Assembly (NCBI GenBank): GCA_041287335.1
Contig: JBEULM010000004.1
Span: 1-47,233 of the forward strand
DNA: 47,233 bases
Source: Hydrogenobacter sp.
GTDB lineage: Bacteria; Aquificota; Aquificia; Aquificales; Aquificaceae
Reading direction: 5' to 3'
Program-made: the position numbers and the translations under genes
Notes under the pieces: generated by a model
Told to the model about the DNA's origin: nothing
What the model saw: only the letters and a program-made list of their open reading frames with translations
Databases searched by the model: none
Shown here: positions 31,332 to 39,654 of the stretch, in pieces
Numbering within the stretch: the first letter of the stretch is position 1
Layout: each line of letters starts with the position of its first letter

Positions 31332-31760
31332 ATGAAGAGTTTAGCAGGTACAAAAACGCTTGAGTGTCTCAAGCATGCCTTTGCTGGTGAGTCTCAGGCA
31401 AACAGGAGATACCTTTACTTTGCCAGAAAAGCGGATATAGAAGGATATCCGGACATAGCCAACATCTTTAGGGAAACAGCAGAAGGTGAGACGGGACACG
31501 CCTTTGGACATATTGAGTTCCTTGAAAAGTATGGAGGTGGAGATCCCGCTACCGGCAAACCCATAGGGAGTATGGAACAGAACCTTGAGGCTGCAATAGC
31601 TGGAGAGACATACGAGTATACGGAGATGTATCCGGGATTTGCTAAGACTGCAAGAGAAGAAGGATTTGAAGATATTGCTGAGTGGTTTGAGACTCTCGCA
31701 AGGGCAGAGAAGTCTCATGCAGGTAGATTCCAAAAGGCACTTGAAAGCCTAAAAGCCTGA
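31332..31760 (+). CDS. Rubrerythrin without rubredoxin domain
   Basis: 142 residues, a four-helix diiron protein. The ligand motifs are [12 protein letters not shown] and [13 protein letters not shown] in the first half, and [13 protein letters not shown] and [12 protein letters not shown] in the second. The C-terminal rubredoxin domain of classical rubrerythrin is absent. In Hydrogenobacter thermophilus a rubrerythrin-type protein (ferriperoxin) acts as a ferredoxin-dependent peroxidase, which is the most likely role here; the identity is inference. Strong own promoter and terminator, so probably abundant. The nearby broken disulfide oxidoreductase may once have been a partner. Confidence 0.9.
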
Positions 31761-32778: not shown

Positions 32779-33198
32779 TCAATACCCCCTTCTAAAGTAT
32801 TGGATAAGCTCTATATATATTATACCAAGCGCGTTATCTATAGCTTGCCTTCTTGGAAGATCACCTAGACCTCCCGTCGGTAGACTGTAAGGTACTGTAA
32901 AGGAAAAATCTTTTTCCCCCTTGATATCTTTGAGAGCTACTGTCAGCGTGATGTTATAAGCGCTCACCCTCTGATAAGGCGTATAAGCTATAGGTATCTC
33001 CTTAAGATCCTTCACCATGGGAACGATGGCGATTGCATCCTTTCCACAACCTACCTTATGCCCACTTTCTAAAATTGCATTTTCTATATTTCTACGCAGC
33101 GCATAGCTCAAGTATGGTTCTTTATAAGGGTTTTCAACGGGTTTTATACAGAACTCCAAAGAGAAAACCAAACTTACCCAAAGAAGGAGGAGTATCAT
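32779..33198 (-). CDS. Small secreted protein, LptE-like by weak resemblance
   Basis: 139 residues with a short signal sequence (MILLLLWVSLVFSLEFC). The segment IPIAYTPYQRVSAYNITLTVALKDI followed by GLGDLPRRQAIDNALGIIYIELIQYFRR resembles the strand-helix order of LPS-assembly protein LptE, in which a terminal helix with RR-x-A follows the barrel-plug strands. The Cys at residue 17 is not in a good lipobox, which argues against a lipoprotein. Identity with LptE is a guess; otherwise an unknown periplasmic protein. Confidence 0.5.
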   Translation of the reverse strand: MILLLLWVSLVFSLEFCIKPVENPYKEPYLSYALRRNIENAILESGHKVGCGKDAIAIVPMVKDLKEIPIAYTPYQRVSAYNITLTVALKDIKGEKDFSFTVPYSLPTGGLGDLPRRQAIDNALGIIYIELIQYFRRGY

Positions 33199-33245
33199 GT
33201 GATATAATTTTAATGTAATAAGTAGACATAAGGAGGTAAGTTATA

Positions 33246-33446
33246 ATGGCTAAGGTAAAGATGAAAAGTAACAGATCAGCAAAGAAGAGGTTTAAAATAA
33301 CCGCTAAGGGCAAGATAAAGAGATGGCGTGCAGGTGGTTCTCACTACAATACTAAGAAGGCAAAGGATAGAAAGAGAAGATTGAGAAAGCCCACCCTTGT
33401 AGGTAGCGGTTGGGAAGACAAAGTTAGAGGACTTTTAAAGGAATGA
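33246..33446 (+). CDS. rpmI: 50S ribosomal protein L35
   Basis: 66 residues, family length. KVKMKSNRSAKKRFKITAKG and GGSHYNTKKAKDRKRRLRKP are diagnostic. AAGGAGGTA precedes the ATG; a TATAAT lies at 33203-33208. Normally rpmI sits between infC and rplT; neither is here. Its TGA overlaps the ATG of pqqD (33443-33446), so a PQQ-type gene is coupled to a ribosomal protein gene. Confidence 0.95.
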   Translation: MAKVKMKSNRSAKKRFKITAKGKIKRWRAGGSHYNTKKAKDRKRRLRKPTLVGSGWEDKVRGLLKE

Positions 33447-33715
33447 CAGAGTACGAGAAAATACCTGTTCTTAAAAAAGGTGTAATTTTGAAGGAGGTTG
33501 CAAATAGGAAGCTCCTTCTTATACCTGAAGGATATATAGAACTGGATGATGTATCTTGGGATATACTTAGAAGATGTGATGGGGTTAAAAAGTTAGGCGA
33601 TATTCTTGAAGAGCTAAAAAATTCTTACGTAGGCGATCCTAAGAGTATTGAGGAAGATACTATACAGCTCCTTATGGAGCTTAAGAACGATCGTCTTCTG
33701 GACTTTATTCCTTGA
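33443..33715 (+). CDS. pqqD: PqqD-type peptide chaperone (RiPP recognition element)
   Basis: 90 residues, the size of stand-alone PqqD. The fold is winged-helix: RKLLLIPEGYIELDDVSWDILRRCDGVKKLGDILEEL matches the PqqD block llPEG-x-v-L-N-x-t-a-x-x-I-L-x-l-cDG. PqqD binds the precursor peptide PqqA and presents it to PqqE. Its place is unusual: coupled to rpmI by ATGA, facing the rest of the cluster. The last 11 bp overlap the convergent MFS gene. A PqqD-like protein serving another radical SAM enzyme is possible, but pqqA and pqqE lie 3-5 kb away. Confidence 0.85.
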   Translation: MTEYEKIPVLKKGVILKEVANRKLLLIPEGYIELDDVSWDILRRCDGVKKLGDILEELKNSYVGDPKSIEEDTIQLLMELKNDRLLDFIP

Positions 33716-34859
33716 TAAAAAGCGCGAGAATTATAAATACGAGAAGTACACAAAGGAGTGCTACCCACACATTAAGGTACTTATCCAGCAACGCTCCAAG
33801 CATAAAACTTAAAGGTTGAGAACCTATGAAGATAGATGTGTAAAGACTCAATATCTTTCCTTTCATCTGCATTGGAGAAGATACTTGTACCTGAGCATTT
33901 GCACATGTGTAAAACATGGACAAGCCAAAACCATTTAGGAAAGTGGCTAAACCAAGTAAAGGGTAAAAGTGAGTGGATGCAAACCATAGAGAAATTCCAA
34001 AAGCGTATAAAAGTATCCCCAATCTTATGAGGGTATAAATTTTCAGATCTTTCAGAACCAGTAGTGATAAAGAACCGAGTACGGAGCCAACACCTGCCAG
34101 AGAAGTTAAGTAACCATAAGTGTGTGGTGGTAGATTCAAAATTTTATATGTGTACTCAGGTAGCAGTACGTAAAAAAACCATCCAAATAAACCTACTATC
34201 AGTGCGAGTGCAAAAATGTTCCTCAGATCCCCGTTTTGTATAAGGAAAATTGCTGTGTAGAGAGCGCTGTATGTGGAGGGAGTATTACTTCTAAGCACGT
34301 ATTTTTTTAAAAAACTCAGAAGGAATACGTTCACAATTAAAAGTATTGCTGACAGTAAAAAACCTAATTCTACACTGGAAAAGGTTACCACTGCACCAAA
34401 CAGAAAAGGACCAAGAAATCTTGAGAAATTAACTATAGTTGAGTAAAAGGATATGGCATTCTTAAGCTTATCCTTATCGTTTACAAGGTGCGCCATAATG
34501 GTTTGCCTCAGCGGGATATCAAGCATCTTCATTATTCCCATAGGTATTACCACGCAAAGTATATTGAACAGTACACTTTCTGTATCATCTTTCGTGATAA
34601 GGTAAAGAACAAGAGATAAAATCATCAACGTAAATTGTGTGAATATGAGCATCCTGTATTTATCAAGCCTGTCTATGAGTGTGCCACCCAAAAAGGGTAA
34701 GAATATAAGGGGTGCGTATTGTAAAAACTGTACCACGCCTACCTTCAGAGTGGATTCAGCTTTTGAGTATACGTAAAAGTTGAGGGCTGTATTCTGTAAC
34801 CAGTTACTCGTTTGATATAAGGATAGGCTTATAAAAAAAAGCGTAACAGCCCTATGCAT
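33705..34859 (-). CDS. Major facilitator superfamily transporter
   Basis: 384 residues with about 12 hydrophobic helices and the loop-2/3 motif LGGTLIDRLDKYRML typical of MFS_3 (EntS-like) exporters. MHRAVTLFFISLSLYQTSNW starts the first helix. It begins 1 bp after the pqqB stop in the same direction and is the last gene of the pqq set, so it could export PQQ or another product of the cluster. The substrate is inferred from position only. Confidence 0.8.
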   Translation of the reverse strand: MHRAVTLFFISLSLYQTSNWLQNTALNFYVYSKAESTLKVGVVQFLQYAPLIFLPFLGGTLIDRLDKYRMLIFTQFTLMILSLVLYLITKDDTESVLFNILCVVIPMGIMKMLDIPLRQTIMAHLVNDKDKLKNAISFYSTIVNFSRFLGPFLFGAVVTFSSVELGFLLSAILLIVNVFLLSFLKKYVLRSNTPSTYSALYTAIFLIQNGDLRNIFALALIVGLFGWFFYVLLPEYTYKILNLPPHTYGYLTSLAGVGSVLGSLSLLVLKDLKIYTLIRLGILLYAFGISLWFASTHFYPLLGLATFLNGFGLSMFYTCANAQVQVSSPMQMKGKILSLYTSIFIGSQPLSFMLGALLDKYLNVWVALLCVLLVFIILALFIKE

Positions 34860-34860
34860 A

Positions 34861-35754
34861 TTAGATGAAAAGCTCCATACCGTCGTAAGCTACAATTACA
34901 CCTGAACTCAAAACTCGCATGTACTCTCGAGAGGCAGGATCGTTGAGTGGATTCGTATTGTTTATATGCGTGTATATCTTGTATCTCGCTTTGCATTCTT
35001 TCAAGATATCAAGACTATCCACTACCGTTATATGCCCTATCTCTTTGGCTCTTTTCCCTTTGGGATCGTATTTTAGGAGTTCTTCTTCCTCCCAAAAAGT
35101 TCCGTCAAATATAACACAATCGCTTTTATCCATAAACCTTTTAAGTTCTTCAGTTATGATTCTCACAACCGGAGCGTAAAGCACGCTTTTCCCTTCATTA
35201 GACTTTATGAGAAGTGCCACCGTTGTACCTTCTTCTTCTTGCCAGTGGTATGTAGGAGGCTTGCCCGGTACGGAAAGGGGAAACACTTCTAAACCTAATT
35301 CTTTCCCTTGCATATCCTTTAAACGATTCCAAACGTTCAGTTCCAAAGTGTACCATTTTACCTTTATTATGCTGTTTGCTTTGAAGTAGTCATTTATAAG
35401 TGTCTGCGTGGTTTTCGTTGAATAAAGTGTAAGATAAGCATCCATATGGGTGGTAGGTCCTCTGAAAGTGAACATACCCAGCATGTGATTTATATCCGTA
35501 TGGGTAAGTATGAGGGATCTCAGGGAAGTCCCTCTCACATTACTCGGACTAAACACGCCGTACTTTGCGATCAGTGAACCTATAACAGGGGGTGCATCTA
35601 CGAGTATCCAACTATCACTATCTACTGATATGGCTATACAAGATTCTTCCCTTCTTGGAATACTTTCCCTTCTTGCTTTATTACAGTATGGGCAATTGCA
35701 GTTCCATTGGGGAAGTCCGCCACCACCTGCAGTGCCTAAGAACAAAATCCTCAT
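34861..35754 (-). CDS. pqqB: PqqB, metallo-beta-lactamase-fold hydroxylase of PQQ synthesis
   Basis: 297 residues. RILFLGTAGGGGLPQWNCNCPYCNKAR contains the structural-zinc cysteines of PqqB (C-x-C-x2-C). Active-site iron ligands are visible as LTHTDINHMLG (His, Asp, His) and IYTHINNTNPL (His). The family hydroxylates the cross-linked Glu-Tyr-derived intermediate. Shorter forms of other MBL-fold proteins are excluded by the WNCNCPYC block and the HINNTNP end. It lies 17 bp downstream of pqqC1. Confidence 0.92.
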   Translation of the reverse strand: MRILFLGTAGGGGLPQWNCNCPYCNKARRESIPRREESCIAISVDSDSWILVDAPPVIGSLIAKYGVFSPSNVRGTSLRSLILTHTDINHMLGMFTFRGPTTHMDAYLTLYSTKTTQTLINDYFKANSIIKVKWYTLELNVWNRLKDMQGKELGLEVFPLSVPGKPPTYHWQEEEGTTVALLIKSNEGKSVLYAPVVRIITEELKRFMDKSDCVIFDGTFWEEEELLKYDPKGKRAKEIGHITVVDSLDILKECKARYKIYTHINNTNPLNDPASREYMRVLSSGVIVAYDGMELFI

Positions 35755-35771
35755 GTTTCCCCCAAGAAATT

Positions 35772-36482
35772 TTAGTCATACGGTGTTTTACCATCATTTT
35801 TTAAAACATACTCATAATAAATGGCATCAAGTAAAGACCACAAAAGATCAAGCTTAAAAGATAGTGCCTTTATGCATTCTCTTCGAGCTTCCAATGTATT
35901 GGCATACTTTCTCAGTATGTCCAATGTGCCAGAAAGGTCCTCCCTAATTCCCTTTTCCGACAATCTCCACTCAAAATACTCAAAACCTTCGGATCTTATC
36001 CAAGGATATTTGTCTTTAAGAGCCACTATCCTTTCCTCTATAGCCTGAGGGGCAAAAAGTTCGGTAAGTGTAGTCGCAACGCCAAATATCCAGCTCCTAC
36101 TTTTGCATAAGTTAAGATAAGTATCTACAGCGAACTTCACGGAGGGTAGGACATACCCTTGCGTGATCTGCTCCCTTTCCAAACCCATTGCCTCTCCGAG
36201 CCTTATCCACATTTCAATACCCCAACTGTCATGATTGATTATTCTTTTTATCCACACTCGTCTTACCTCAATGAAGGGGCAGTTGGAGATGATCGCGGCA
36301 TCCTTCATAGGAAGTATTCTCTGGTAGTAAAACCTGTTTATCACCCAAGCTCTTATCTGACCGGGTGTTAGCTTCCCTTCTATCATAAGCTTGTGAAAAG
36401 GATGATTGGTGTGATACTTATCTTTACCTAACTCCCTTAAAGTGTTTACAAATTCCTCAAAAGGTACCTCTAACTCAACCAT
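35772..36482 (-). CDS. pqqC: PqqC homologue, copy 1 (pyrroloquinoline-quinone synthase family)
   Basis: 236 residues (family about 250). Against Klebsiella PqqC as I remember it, His24 (YHTNHP), Arg50 and Gln54 (NRFYYQ), His84 (INHD), Tyr128, Glu147 (LTELFAP), Arg157, Tyr175/Arg179 (YFEWRL) and Lys214 (FKLDLLW) are kept. His154 is replaced: APQAIEER has Ile where PqqC has His. The loop after His84 (HDSWGIEMW) is shortened and lacks the HDG glycine. Residues near 22-84 are coded by DNA almost identical to copy 2. It overlaps pqqE by 13 bp. It could be the true oxidase, a subunit of a mixed dimer, or a diverged relative. Confidence 0.85.
   Translation of the reverse strand: MVELEVPFEEFVNTLRELGKDKYHTNHPFHKLMIEGKLTPGQIRAWVINRFYYQRILPMKDAAIISNCPFIEVRRVWIKRIINHDSWGIEMWIRLGEAMGLEREQITQGYVLPSVKFAVDTYLNLCKSRSWIFGVATTLTELFAPQAIEERIVALKDKYPWIRSEGFEYFEWRLSEKGIREDLSGTLDILRKYANTLEARRECIKALSFKLDLLWSLLDAIYYEYVLKNDGKTPYD
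36229..36417. repeat. 189-bp near-identical block shared by the two pqqC copies (copy 1)
   Basis: Bases 36229-36417 match 38011-38199 at a constant offset of 1782 bp with one mismatch (T at 36318, C at 38100). A further 22 bp (36442-36463 and 38224-38245) also match. Outside these blocks the genes are strongly diverged. The pattern points to recent gene conversion. Confidence 0.95.
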
Positions 36483-37567
36483 TTGACCGTACCTCTCCTT
36501 AGCGGTGACACATCATACTTTTTTGCGTCCTCTATAAGCCTATCTACCAGATATCTGTAAGGTGAAAGTTCGCAGCTCGGATCAGTGGCATCAGCCACAT
36601 TCGTTAATAGGTAAGCAAAACACCTGCACCCACCAAAATCCTTCTCTTTATTTGGACACGTTTTGCAAGGTTCTTTCATCCACTCAAACCCCCTAAAGGC
36701 GTTAAAAGATTCCGAGTTATACCATATATCCCGTAGATCTTTTTCCTTCACATTTTCAAAGGTCAAAGTTTTTATAACCTTTGCACCATGACATGGGAGT
36801 ACTTCTCCGATAGGATTCACAACTATATATTTGTTTCCCCATCCGTAAGTGCAGGGTCTTGGTCTTCCTTCGTATATATCAAGGGCAACCATGGTTATAC
36901 TCATTTGTCCCTTGAGTTTTTCTTTATACTCTTGAGCAACTTTATAAGCTCTCTCAACACTTTCCTTATTTGGTATTAATGAAAGTCTGTTTTTCCAATC
37001 CCATCCTCCGAATTGTAACATAGCTATCTCAAATCTTGGCACTCCTAAATCATAAACGAATTGGATAATATTCTCTATGTGGTCAATATTCCATTTGTGA
37101 AGAACTATATTCATAGTCAAGAATACACCAGTTTCCTTAAGCCAGGATAATACCTTTAGCTTCTTTTCATACGTATGTGACTCTCCTATGAGGTCATTTA
37201 GTTCTTTTGTATGAGCTTGGAAGCTTACCTGTATGTGATCCACCCCTTTTTCTATAAGCTTTTCCCAATATTCTCTGTCATAAAGGGTAATATTCGTTAT
37301 TAGGTTGACGTAAGTCCCACATTTCTTTGCCTCCTCCACTATGTCCGGTAAATCCGGTCTTATTGTAGGCTCCCCACCGGTTATATGAATATGAATTACA
37401 CCCAGATCAGATGCTTTTCTGATGACCTTTCTCCATTCGTCCGTGGTGAGTTCTTTTTGGATAGGATACTCGCTAAGGTCCTGTGGATTATAACAGTACC
37501 AGCAATGCATATTACATCTGTATGTAAGTTCAGCTACAAGTACCTCAGGTTCTTTTACCTCATTCAT
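36470..37567 (-). CDS. pqqE: PqqE, radical SAM enzyme cross-linking PqqA
   Basis: 365 residues. The radical SAM cluster is CNMHCWYCYNP (Cys at about 18, 22 and 25); the SAM-binding loop is TGGEPTIRPD. The SPASM region supplies cysteines for two auxiliary clusters: RPCTYGWGN, LPCHGAKV, EPCKTCPNKEKDFGGCRCF and DPSCELSPYR. It joins Glu and Tyr of PqqA by a C-C bond. It overlaps pqqC2 (8 bp) and pqqC1 (13 bp), and is the only pqq gene between the two pqqC copies. Confidence 0.95.
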   Translation of the reverse strand: MNEVKEPEVLVAELTYRCNMHCWYCYNPQDLSEYPIQKELTTDEWRKVIRKASDLGVIHIHITGGEPTIRPDLPDIVEEAKKCGTYVNLITNITLYDREYWEKLIEKGVDHIQVSFQAHTKELNDLIGESHTYEKKLKVLSWLKETGVFLTMNIVLHKWNIDHIENIIQFVYDLGVPRFEIAMLQFGGWDWKNRLSLIPNKESVERAYKVAQEYKEKLKGQMSITMVALDIYEGRPRPCTYGWGNKYIVVNPIGEVLPCHGAKVIKTLTFENVKEKDLRDIWYNSESFNAFRGFEWMKEPCKTCPNKEKDFGGCRCFAYLLTNVADATDPSCELSPYRYLVDRLIEDAKKYDVSPLRRGTVKWLS

Positions 37568-38261
37568 AATCTTTCCTCCCCCTCACTATATATTCCATAT
37601 AAAGCGCATCAAGTATGTTCCAAAGTACGGTTGTTTTAAAAATGAGGGCTTTCAAACATCTTTCCCTATCTTCATCCGTCTTTATATAATCCCTGAGTAT
37701 ATTAAGAGCCATACGGCTATCCTCAGGTCCTTCTATCAGCCTCCATTGAAAGTACTCAAAACCCTCTGGTTTTATCCAAGGATAATACCTTTTCATATAC
37801 TCAAGCCTATCTCTGTGCGCGTCAGGTGCAACAAGAGTTGTAAGGGAAGAAGCTACACCTTCAAGCCAAGAGCTGTTTTTACAAAACTCCAGATAAGCAT
37901 CGCAGGCGAGTTTTACACCGGGTAATACATTTCCAGCAAAAAGGTCTTCACGTGTTAGACCTACAGCTTCACCCAAACGCAGCCATTTTTCAAGCCCCCC
38001 ATTTTCACCATCATGATTGATTATTCTTTTTATCCACACTCGTCTTACCTCAATGAAGGGGCAGTTGGAGATGATCGCGGCATCCTTCATAGGAAGTATC
38101 CTCTGGTAGTAAAACCTGTTTATCACCCAAGCTCTTATCTGACCGGGTGTTAGCTTCCCTTCTATCATAAGCTTGTGAAAAGGATGATTGGTGTGATACC
38201 TCTTAGCCCCCTCAACCTTCAGCGTGTTTACAAATTCCTCAAAAGCATCAACTGAAGACAC
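37560..38261 (-). CDS. pqqC: PqqC homologue, copy 2
   Basis: 233 residues from the GTG at 38261, with AGGAGG 7 nt upstream. Kept relative to remembered Klebsiella numbering: His24, Arg50, Gln54, His84 with an intact HDG-x-x-GG loop (HDGENGGLEKW), Tyr128, His154 (APDAHRDR), Arg157, Tyr175/Arg179 and Lys214. Lost: Glu147, as LTTLVAP replaces LTELFAP. It thus has the opposite gap to copy 1. It is the first large gene after pqqA, the usual order for a catalytic component. Function as the ring-closing oxidase, alone or with copy 1, is not decided by sight. Confidence 0.85.
   Translation of the reverse strand: MSSVDAFEEFVNTLKVEGAKRYHTNHPFHKLMIEGKLTPGQIRAWVINRFYYQRILPMKDAAIISNCPFIEVRRVWIKRIINHDGENGGLEKWLRLGEAVGLTREDLFAGNVLPGVKLACDAYLEFCKNSSWLEGVASSLTTLVAPDAHRDRLEYMKRYYPWIKPEGFEYFQWRLIEGPEDSRMALNILRDYIKTDEDRERCLKALIFKTTVLWNILDALYMEYIVRGRKDYE
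38011..38199. repeat. 189-bp near-identical block shared by the two pqqC copies (copy 2)
   Basis: Partner of 36229-36417, 188 of 189 bases identical. It encodes the segment from YHTNHPFHK to IINHD, including active-site residues His24, Arg50, Gln54 and His84 of the PqqC family. Confidence 0.95.
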
Positions 38262-38290
38262 AGCACACCTCCTGCCTGCTTAATAAACCC

Positions 38291-38312
38291 GCATACCCAT
38301 AAGAGGGTATGC
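38291..38312 (-). terminator. Hairpin between pqqA and pqqC2 (attenuator or mRNA-stabilising)
   Basis: GCATACCC (38291-38298) and GGGTATGC (38305-38312) form a perfect 8-bp stem with a 6-nt loop, 19 bp after the pqqA stop. On the minus strand GGGTTTATTAAG follows, a weak T-run. In known pqq operons pqqA mRNA is made in excess over the downstream genes; this hairpin would have that effect. Confidence 0.6.
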
Positions 38313-38331
38313 AGGCAAAAGGAGATTTCAG

Positions 38332-38415
38332 TTATACTTTGACCATAGAGTAAGCGCTGTACTCGGATCCAACGCTTACCTTCTTGAGGGTGGGCTTGCG
38401 CCACTCTCTCCTCAT
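38332..38415 (-). CDS. pqqA: PqqA precursor peptide
   Basis: 27 residues: MRREWRKPTLKKVSV then GSEYSAYSMVKV. It has the size (22-29) and basic, Trp/Lys-Pro-containing leader of PqqA. The conserved core Glu-x3-Tyr is Glu18-Tyr19-Ser20-Ala21-Tyr22, so Glu18 and Tyr22 would be cross-linked by PqqE and become the PQQ skeleton. A near-perfect Shine-Dalgarno, AAGGAGGTGA, ends 5 nt before the ATG, fitting high expression. First gene of the minus-strand pqq operon, 70 bp before pqqC2. A second Tyr next to Glu18 is unusual. No dedicated protease gene (pqqF/G type) is in the window. Confidence 0.85.
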   Translation of the reverse strand: MRREWRKPTLKKVSVGSEYSAYSMVKV

Positions 38416-38453
38416 GGCTATCACCTCCTTTTACAAGTATTTGTTATTAATAA

Positions 38454-38494
38454 CTATTATTATTAAATATTGAATTGTCAAGTGATTTAGATCA
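38454..38494 (-). promoter_or_regulatory. Proximal pqqA promoter with FNR/CRP-like site
   Basis: On the minus strand TTGACA (38481-38476), 16-bp spacer, TAATAG (38459-38454). One base upstream of the -35 lies the palindrome TGATTTAGATCA (38483-38494; TGAT-N4-ATCA, the core of FNR/CRP sites). Its centre is near -43, the place from which such regulators activate. Confidence 0.6.
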
Positions 38495-38523
38495 TTAACA
38501 TTCCTCAACATCTTTAGGAAGAA

Positions 38524-38552
38524 ATTATAATGCTTAAAAGCTGAAGTGTCAA
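38524..38552 (-). promoter_or_regulatory. Distal consensus sigma-70 promoter of the pqq operon
   Basis: On the minus strand TTGACA (38552-38547), 17-bp spacer, TATAAT (38529-38524), both perfect. It lies about 110 nt upstream of the pqqA start. With the proximal promoter it makes a tandem pair: one constitutive-looking, one probably regulated. Confidence 0.75.
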
Positions 38553-38595
38553 GTTAATTTCTCCACTGAGAAAGACGGTAAGAAAGCAAGTGTAA

Positions 38596-39654
38596 TTAAA
38601 ATCCTATTCTTACTTTAAAAGGCTGACCGTAAGGAGGTTGGAAGTTAGACGCTTGCACCTGAACATTTCTGTATTTACCCTGAAGGCTTTGTGTAAGTGT
38701 AGGAAGAGAAAGTGTGTACCCCTCCGCAGTTATGCTTTGAGCATCATATTGTAAGCTAAGTATCTTAGTCTTCGGAGGTAGAAGCTGAACAAAATCAGCG
38801 AAGGTTTTTATAAAGCTTCTTTCTTTGAGAAGCTTTATCAGCGTCCTTTTTGTGTCAACCTCTTTAAGCTTTATGCTGTATCTGTCAGCCAAAGGTTGCA
38901 GTCTCGCTATCTCTTCGTTTACTCTATCCAATCTTCTCTTGAGATGATAATAGTCATAAGCCATAAGGCTTAAGCTCAAAAGAACTATTACAACTACCGT
39001 GCTTACAGGGTAAAGATATCTCCTTCCCAACTTTACACGAAATAGCTTACGCTTATCGTAAAAAGCAAGTTCTAAAGGTTCGTGTTTCAAAAGCACATCT
39101 AAGGTCAAACACGCAACACTGTATTCGCCGTCAAGGATGCGCAGTTCCTTCTCCTTTACTTCTTCCGATAATATACTGTCCGTAAGTTTACCATCTCTTA
39201 TGACCACTTTTTCGTAAAGTCCTTCACTCAACTTTCTGTAAAAGGATCCTTCTCCTAAACTTTTGTAGAGGATAGGCGATGGAACGAGGAACTTAAGATT
39301 GGGAAAGCTCAAGATTTCGTCATACAGGGACTGAGGTATGGCGAATATGAAACACTCAACCTCTTTACCTGAGGTATTTATAGGAAGGACAGTTACTTTC
39401 AGCGGAACTTTTAATGGAAAGATCTCCTCTATATTCAACATCACCGCTTCTTTGATATCGTCCAATGCCTCAATTGGAAAGGTGTACTTCCTGACCAGAA
39501 GTACGTCCCTGCCTACAGCTATACCCAAATCTTTACCTGAGGAGAACTCTTTTAATTCCTGAAGATTCTCAAGTTTGATGTTCCCATCACGCGAACATAC
39601 ATAAATTCCACTTTGGGTAAACTCTACACCTATAACCCCTTTTTTCAATCTCAT
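38596..39654 (-). CDS. GspL/PilN-like secretion or pilus assembly protein
   Basis: 352 residues. The cytoplasmic half (1 to about 205) looks like the actin-like domain of GspL/PilM ([37 protein letters not shown]). One membrane helix at about 217-236 ([17 protein letters not shown]) is followed by a coiled coil ([15 protein letters not shown]) and a PilN/GspL-type periplasmic domain ([22 protein letters not shown]). So it is bitopic, as GspL. No other secretin, ATPase or pilin gene is near. ATGA overlap with rpoD means it is translated with the primary sigma factor. Confidence 0.7.

Follow-up and report, generated by a model that had tools for sequence, protein, structure and literature searches.

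Two PqqC paralogues in a PQQ operon of Hydrogenobacter

The window analyzed here, a stretch of 47,233 nucleotides of the heat-loving bacterium Hydrogenobacter sp. (contig JBEULM010000004.1, assembly GCA_041287335.1), carries what appears to be a working operon for the redox cofactor PQQ with two different PqqC genes, pqqC1 and pqqC2. We consider it about 60% probable that C1 is a sufficient synthase and that C2 is an old, specialised paralogue with an auxiliary role.

The cluster begins on the minus strand with pqqA (38335-38415, minus strand), whose 27 codons translate to MRREWRKPTLKKVSVGSEYSAYSMVKV with the ExxxY motif. It is followed on the same strand by pqqC2 (37563-38261), which starts with GTG; pqqE (36473-37567), which encodes the radical SAM/SPASM enzyme that cross-links PqqA (TIGR02109, 424.7 bits, cut-off 381); pqqC1 (35775-36482); pqqB (34864-35754), which encodes the metallo-beta-lactamase-fold PQQ biosynthesis protein (TIGR02108, 247.1 bits, cut-off 245); and, directly behind pqqB, the gene of an MFS transporter (33708-34859; Pfam MFS_1, 109.6 bits), possibly an exporter. 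The gene of the PqqA chaperone, pqqD (33443-33712, plus strand), is convergent to the operon and overlaps an rpmI-like L35 gene; its product scored 45.0 bits with Pfam PqqD (cut-off 23.4) and 45.8 bits with NCBIfam TIGR03859, 0.2 bits under the cut-off of 46. Both PqqC copies exceed the cut-off of 240 bits of TIGR02111, the NCBIfam equivalog of PqqC, with 258.6 bits for C1 and 278.0 bits for C2. The locus was placed among PQQ operons on the joint presence of pqqA with E-x3-Y, PqqB, PqqC, PqqD and PqqE. The first-pass annotation had described a complete PQQ-type cluster, pqqA-C2-E-C1-B-MFS on the minus strand with pqqD adjoining, and the curated models bear this out, with pqqD on the plus strand. 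Candidates for a PqqF/PqqG-type protease were found outside the operon as a pair of adjacent half-size M16 genes, in all five genomes of the genus, pqq-bearing or not.

Since pqqE shares a few bases with pqqC2 and with pqqC1, the gap between pqqC1 and pqqB is short and pqqB is separated from the MFS gene by one base, the spacing from pqqC2 to the MFS gene is as expected for one transcript. The spacer between pqqA and pqqC2 (38262-38334, minus strand) is predicted to fold into a stem-loop (MFE -29.6 kcal/mol, z -3.42), and a similar 11-bp hairpin (z -2.72) occupies the equivalent position in the sister species described below. This structure likely lowers or processes the expression of the genes behind pqqA. 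A sigma-70-like promoter with a perfect consensus, TTGACA-17-TATAAT, is located at 38552-38524, and promoter and hairpin together are what one might expect where a peptide gene is expressed above the enzyme genes. No Rfam matches were obtained in 33000-39000.

Compared with the single-copy pqqABCDE operons of Proteobacteria, the same genes are present and the PqqA peptide gene is likewise at the head; however, two PqqC paralogues here flank pqqE, and pqqD is convergent and lies outside. The first-pass annotation had also proposed a survey for paired copies. Among 136 genomes of Aquificota searched, PqqC was found in two, those of the window and of a sister species in the same genus, and both carry two copies. 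The window's genome is a draft of 64 contigs, and that of the sister species is one contig of 1,743,135 bases. The gene order in the latter is identical, pqqA-C2-E-C1-B-MFS with pqqD opposite beside L35, and its pqqA, upstream of pqqC2, specifies the identical 27-residue peptide.

Outside the phylum, two PqqCs over the cut-off were found in one of 52 PqqC-bearing genomes sampled from gammaproteobacteria, none of 65 from alphaproteobacteria, one of 12 from actinobacteria and none of five from the FCPU426 phylum. The copies of the gammaproteobacterial and the actinobacterial genome are on different contigs, unlike the in-operon pair here, and in these two genomes neither an in-operon pair nor a change of Glu147 was seen. 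Likewise, when 80 PqqC loci were inspected with flanks of up to 6 kb to either side, no second PqqC was nearby in any of them.

Gene conversion of the N-terminal halves

The pqqC1 tract at 36228-36417 and its pqqC2 partner at 38010-38199 (both minus strand), which encode residues 23-85, agree in 188 of their 190 bases. The two copies of the sister species agree at 187 of 189 bases over the equivalent stretch, and in each genome all 63 amino acids of the tract are identical between the copies. Tract identity is approximately 99% within each genome but only approximately 78% between the genomes (about 22% of positions differ), and dS, which is 0.055 within each genome, is saturated or nearly so between them (2.5 to infinite). 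In a longest-run permutation test, the observed run of agreeing sites was reached in 0 of 10,000 permutations in both species. Because the copies resemble each other within a genome far more than either resembles its orthologue, the tract reflects concerted evolution by recurrent gene conversion, which has acted in each lineage on its own.

The two species agree in the 5' edge of the tract, which is at the codon for Tyr23. Its 3' edge is at Asp85 in the window's genome and some 15 alignment positions further on in the sister species, and this later edge is probably the source of the short loop that both sister-species copies have after His84. The window's genome being a draft, one could also ascribe the near-identical block to an assembly artefact or to a very recent duplication. 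We regard this as scarcely credible, since the same pattern occurs independently, with a different block sequence, in the single-contig genome of the sister species, which rules out an artefact of assembly, and the copies fall to about 56% nucleotide identity behind the block in both genomes. The locus is a clear example from bacteria of an enzyme pair in which conversion affects one half only and the other halves stay separate. The near-identity of pqqC1 and pqqC2 over the tract was absent from the first-pass annotation.

Divergent C-terminal halves and age of the pair

The C-terminal halves of C1 and C2 share 49-51% of their amino acids, compared with 80% between the C1 orthologues and 75% between the C2 orthologues of the two species. 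The C-terminal dN/dS between orthologues is 0.07 for C1 and 0.13 for C2, values that are rough because the corresponding dS is above 1. In the tree of the C-terminal halves, C1 groups with C1 (100/98) and C2 with C2 (100/99) across the species. From this grouping, the orthologue identities and the low dN/dS, we conclude that the C-terminal halves are under purifying selection and that both genes are old; on the same sequence comparisons, the duplication that produced C2 predates the separation of the two carrier species. The C-terminal differences persist although the adjoining half is still being converted, and selection may block conversion of the C-terminal half. The tree also joins the C1 and C2 clades (99/94), so that separate horizontal origins of the copies are unsupported, although the sisterhood of C1 and C2 is less certain because both branches are long.

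Active-site residues and structure of the two copies

An alignment to a PqqC structure, as the first-pass annotation had suggested, was made with Klebsiella PqqC (1OTV). It confirmed Glu147 in copy 1, together with Ile154, and Thr147 in copy 2, together with His154. The conserved cavity residues H24, R50, Y53, Q54, K60, D61, H84, Y128, R157, Y175, R179 and K214 are present in all four proteins of the two species. The 169 other distinct PqqCs have Glu at position 147 without exception, and C2 of both species has Thr; as two species carry the pair, this conservation of Thr147 amounts to one comparison. Position 154 is more variable: of the same 169 proteins, 117 have His, 35 Ile and 17 Met. Ile154 also occurs beside Glu147 in the solved PqqC/D of Methylobacterium extorquens (SLTEMFSPTIISERV), which reportedly converts the intermediate to PQQ (Toyama 2002). 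Because Ile or Met is found in 52 of the 169 proteins and in this enzyme, Ile154 of copy 1 is a natural variant rather than a lesion, and we rejected the view of copy 1 as a damaged enzyme. The M. extorquens protein (PDB 5VRC/5VRD) is like copy 1 in both residues, but it is a single fused PqqC-PqqD protein with a full-length loop after His84.

That loop contains two glycines, 86 and 92, which are invariant in the 169 PqqCs and missing in copy 1 as well as in both sister-species copies; for this reason the loop does not tell the copies apart and was discarded as a copy-specific trait. C1 of the window thus departs at family-invariant sites, namely these glycines and Ser144, which is replaced by Thr. 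Copy 2 retains both glycines, yet it has six residues between H84 and I94 compared with at least nine in the other PqqCs. What the first-pass annotation had read in copy 1, namely Glu147, Ile154 and a shortened loop, agrees with the alignment. For copy 2 it was right about Thr147, His154 and the glycines of the loop, but it took as intact a loop that is shortened too. Its view that the copies are defective at different active-site residues finds no support in copy 1, and its interpretation of complementary defects fails, Ile/Met154 being natural and the short loop being present in both sister-species copies. Among the departures that it named, the sequences single out Thr147 of copy 2 as the only exceptional one.

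Further residues distinguish the copies in both species. C1 has T/L/T at positions 127/131/144 where C2 has A/F/S, and E/F at 147/149 where C2 has T/V, Val149 replacing Phe. Glu147 is not an established defining residue of PqqC, and with Thr in its place we designate C2 a PqqC paralogue and not a proven PQQ synthase. In the more distant, CADD-like relatives that were aligned, the corresponding residue is also a conserved Glu, which in the dimetal oxidases of the CADD type coordinates metal. C2 would offer a natural probe of the otherwise invariant cavity Glu, selection having preserved the replacement in both species next to a normal copy. The literature searched yielded no publications about PqqC pairs or mutants of Glu147.

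The predicted models of both copies match the heme-oxygenase-like fold of solved PqqC. That of C1 (pLDDT 91.6) has a TM score of 0.90 to PDB 1otw and the AlphaFold model of C2 (pLDDT 95.5) one of 0.91 to PDB 3hlx/1otw. Both copies agree with Klebsiella PqqC (PDB 1OTV/1OTW) in fold (TM 0.90-0.91) and in the main cavity residues, whereas Thr147 of copy 2 differs and the loop after His84 is 3-5 residues shorter. The helix before His84 continues through the shortened loop in the C1 model (71-98) and is broken at the loop in that of C2 (70-84, 89-99). The CADD-type heme-oxygenase-like dimetal oxidases (CT610, PDB 1RCW/8VA9) have the same fold, with TM scores of 0.79-0.82 and 20-22% identity. However, both copies sit in a PQQ operon and score well under the CADD cut-off (61.5 and 60.2 versus 200 bits), and these scores exclude membership in CADD or TenA. 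A third gene of the TENA/PqqC family was not found in the window's genome.

Roles of C1 and C2

In the pathway that we propose, PqqE, assisted by PqqD, would form the cross-link between Glu and Tyr in PqqA, PqqB and an M16-type protease whose gene lies elsewhere would act afterwards, and PqqC would oxidise AHQQ to PQQ. The catalytically sufficient PqqC is most probably C1, which has Glu147 and Ile154 as in M. extorquens and differs from that enzyme in its short loop. C2 would bind the same intermediate or PQQ and have a specialised job, either a subset of the oxidation steps or the holding and handing over of intermediate or product; the lack of Glu147 probably changes how it treats this intermediate, towards partial oxidation, holding or release. 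Repeated conversion keeps the cavity alike in its N-terminal half, from H24 to H84, and selection would keep the C-terminal halves different. The reaction of PqqC is an eight-electron oxidation that needs neither metal nor cofactor, and the order of its steps is still studied. A second oxidase step, one of the possibilities raised by the first-pass annotation, may be involved. A division of this oxidation of AHQQ between C1 and C2, with a catalytic N-terminal half maintained in common by conversion and functionally distinct C-terminal halves, is a tentative and unlikely extension of the proposal. If it is true, C2 with its Thr147 stops at, or starts from, an intermediate that C1 handles, and natural enzymes separate the steps of a cofactorless oxidation.

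We find it doubtful that the two copies are simply redundant, that is, full PqqCs in which Thr147 is tolerated, duplication raises the enzyme dose and conversion is the usual by-product of having close paralogues. Both exceed the equivalog cut-off and keep the remaining conserved cavity residues that were checked, and a greater dose would suit an enzyme for which single turnover owing to product inhibition has been reported in vitro (PMC2294125). Nevertheless, copies kept for dosage would be free to convert over their whole length, whereas the C-terminal halves are about 50% different, the copy-specific residues are kept in both species and Glu147 is otherwise invariant. It is rather improbable that C2 is a non-catalytic carrier or regulator (pseudoenzyme) of PQQ or AHQQ, which would relieve the product inhibition of C1 or deliver PQQ to PqqB or to an exporter. 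The loss of the invariant cavity Glu with retention of the substrate-binding residues speaks for such a protein, as does the requirement for a PQQ acceptor that has been discussed (PMC2294125); H84, Y175 and R179, which are expected to matter for catalysis, are nevertheless retained. This reading and the auxiliary role that we prefer for C2 overlap.

The mixed dimer that the first-pass annotation had suggested, in which two half-defective sites of C1 and C2 complement each other, seems very unlikely to us. PqqC is a homodimer (PMC2294125), both genes flank pqqE in one operon and the common N-terminal half could keep the interfaces compatible. However, C1 is not defective at position 154, and in the sister species the two copies do not differ in the loop. 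Moreover, complementing sites are unlikely because the cavity is enclosed by the helices of each single monomer (PMC2294125), so that E147 of one chain would not complete the site of the other.

A PQQ dehydrogenase elsewhere in the genome

A PQQ-dependent dehydrogenase of the methanol/ethanol type (TIGR03075, cut-off 480 bits) is encoded once in the window's genome (656 bits) and once in that of the sister species (647 bits). Among the five genomes of the genus searched, it is present in exactly the two with PqqC and absent from the three without it. This alcohol dehydrogenase would be the client of the PQQ operon. Its motif is WDYDGVNE, with an extra Asp that presumably marks lanthanide-dependent (XoxF-like) enzymes. 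The locus documents PQQ synthesis, rare in Aquificota (the two PqqC-bearing genomes of the phylum), along with an alcohol dehydrogenase of the lanthanide type in the same genomes. Downstream of the dehydrogenase are genes for a beta-propeller protein, an XoxJ/MoxJ-like binding protein, a TonB receptor and a molybdenum hydroxylase. The receptor is PqqU-like, with a score of 459 against a PqqU cut-off of 1200, and a PqqU homologue in H. thermophilus was already listed in a paper of 2025 (PMC12124388).

Genes and sites associated with PQQ

Outside the window, G000 (the genome of the window) carries a PQQ alcohol-oxidation module (contig C16, L090:7779-16749), which is unexpected in Aquificota and comprises a dehydrogenase together with a propeller, a XoxJ-like protein, a TonB receptor resembling PqqU and a molybdenum hydroxylase. 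Judging from its motif WDYDGVNE, the dehydrogenase is of the lanthanide type. The sister species G028 likewise possesses such a module (L091). Moreover, two half-size M16 protease genes lie side by side in G000 (contig C26:11499-13162). This pair is present in all five genomes of the genus and is not PQQ-specific; it is possibly the PqqF/PqqG equivalent in the PQQ-making genomes.

At 33246-33715 (+) in the window, pqqD overlaps the end of an L35 ribosomal protein gene; it comes after L35 in G028 as well, and this arrangement may couple PqqD synthesis to the ribosomal gene. A rubrerythrin-like gene (31332-31760, +) is also found near the PQQ locus, as in G028. A sigma-70 promoter-like site (TTGACA-17-TATAAT; 38524-38552, -) that lies about 110 bases upstream of pqqA matches the consensus at 12/12 positions. 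A second one (38453-38481) matches at 10/12.
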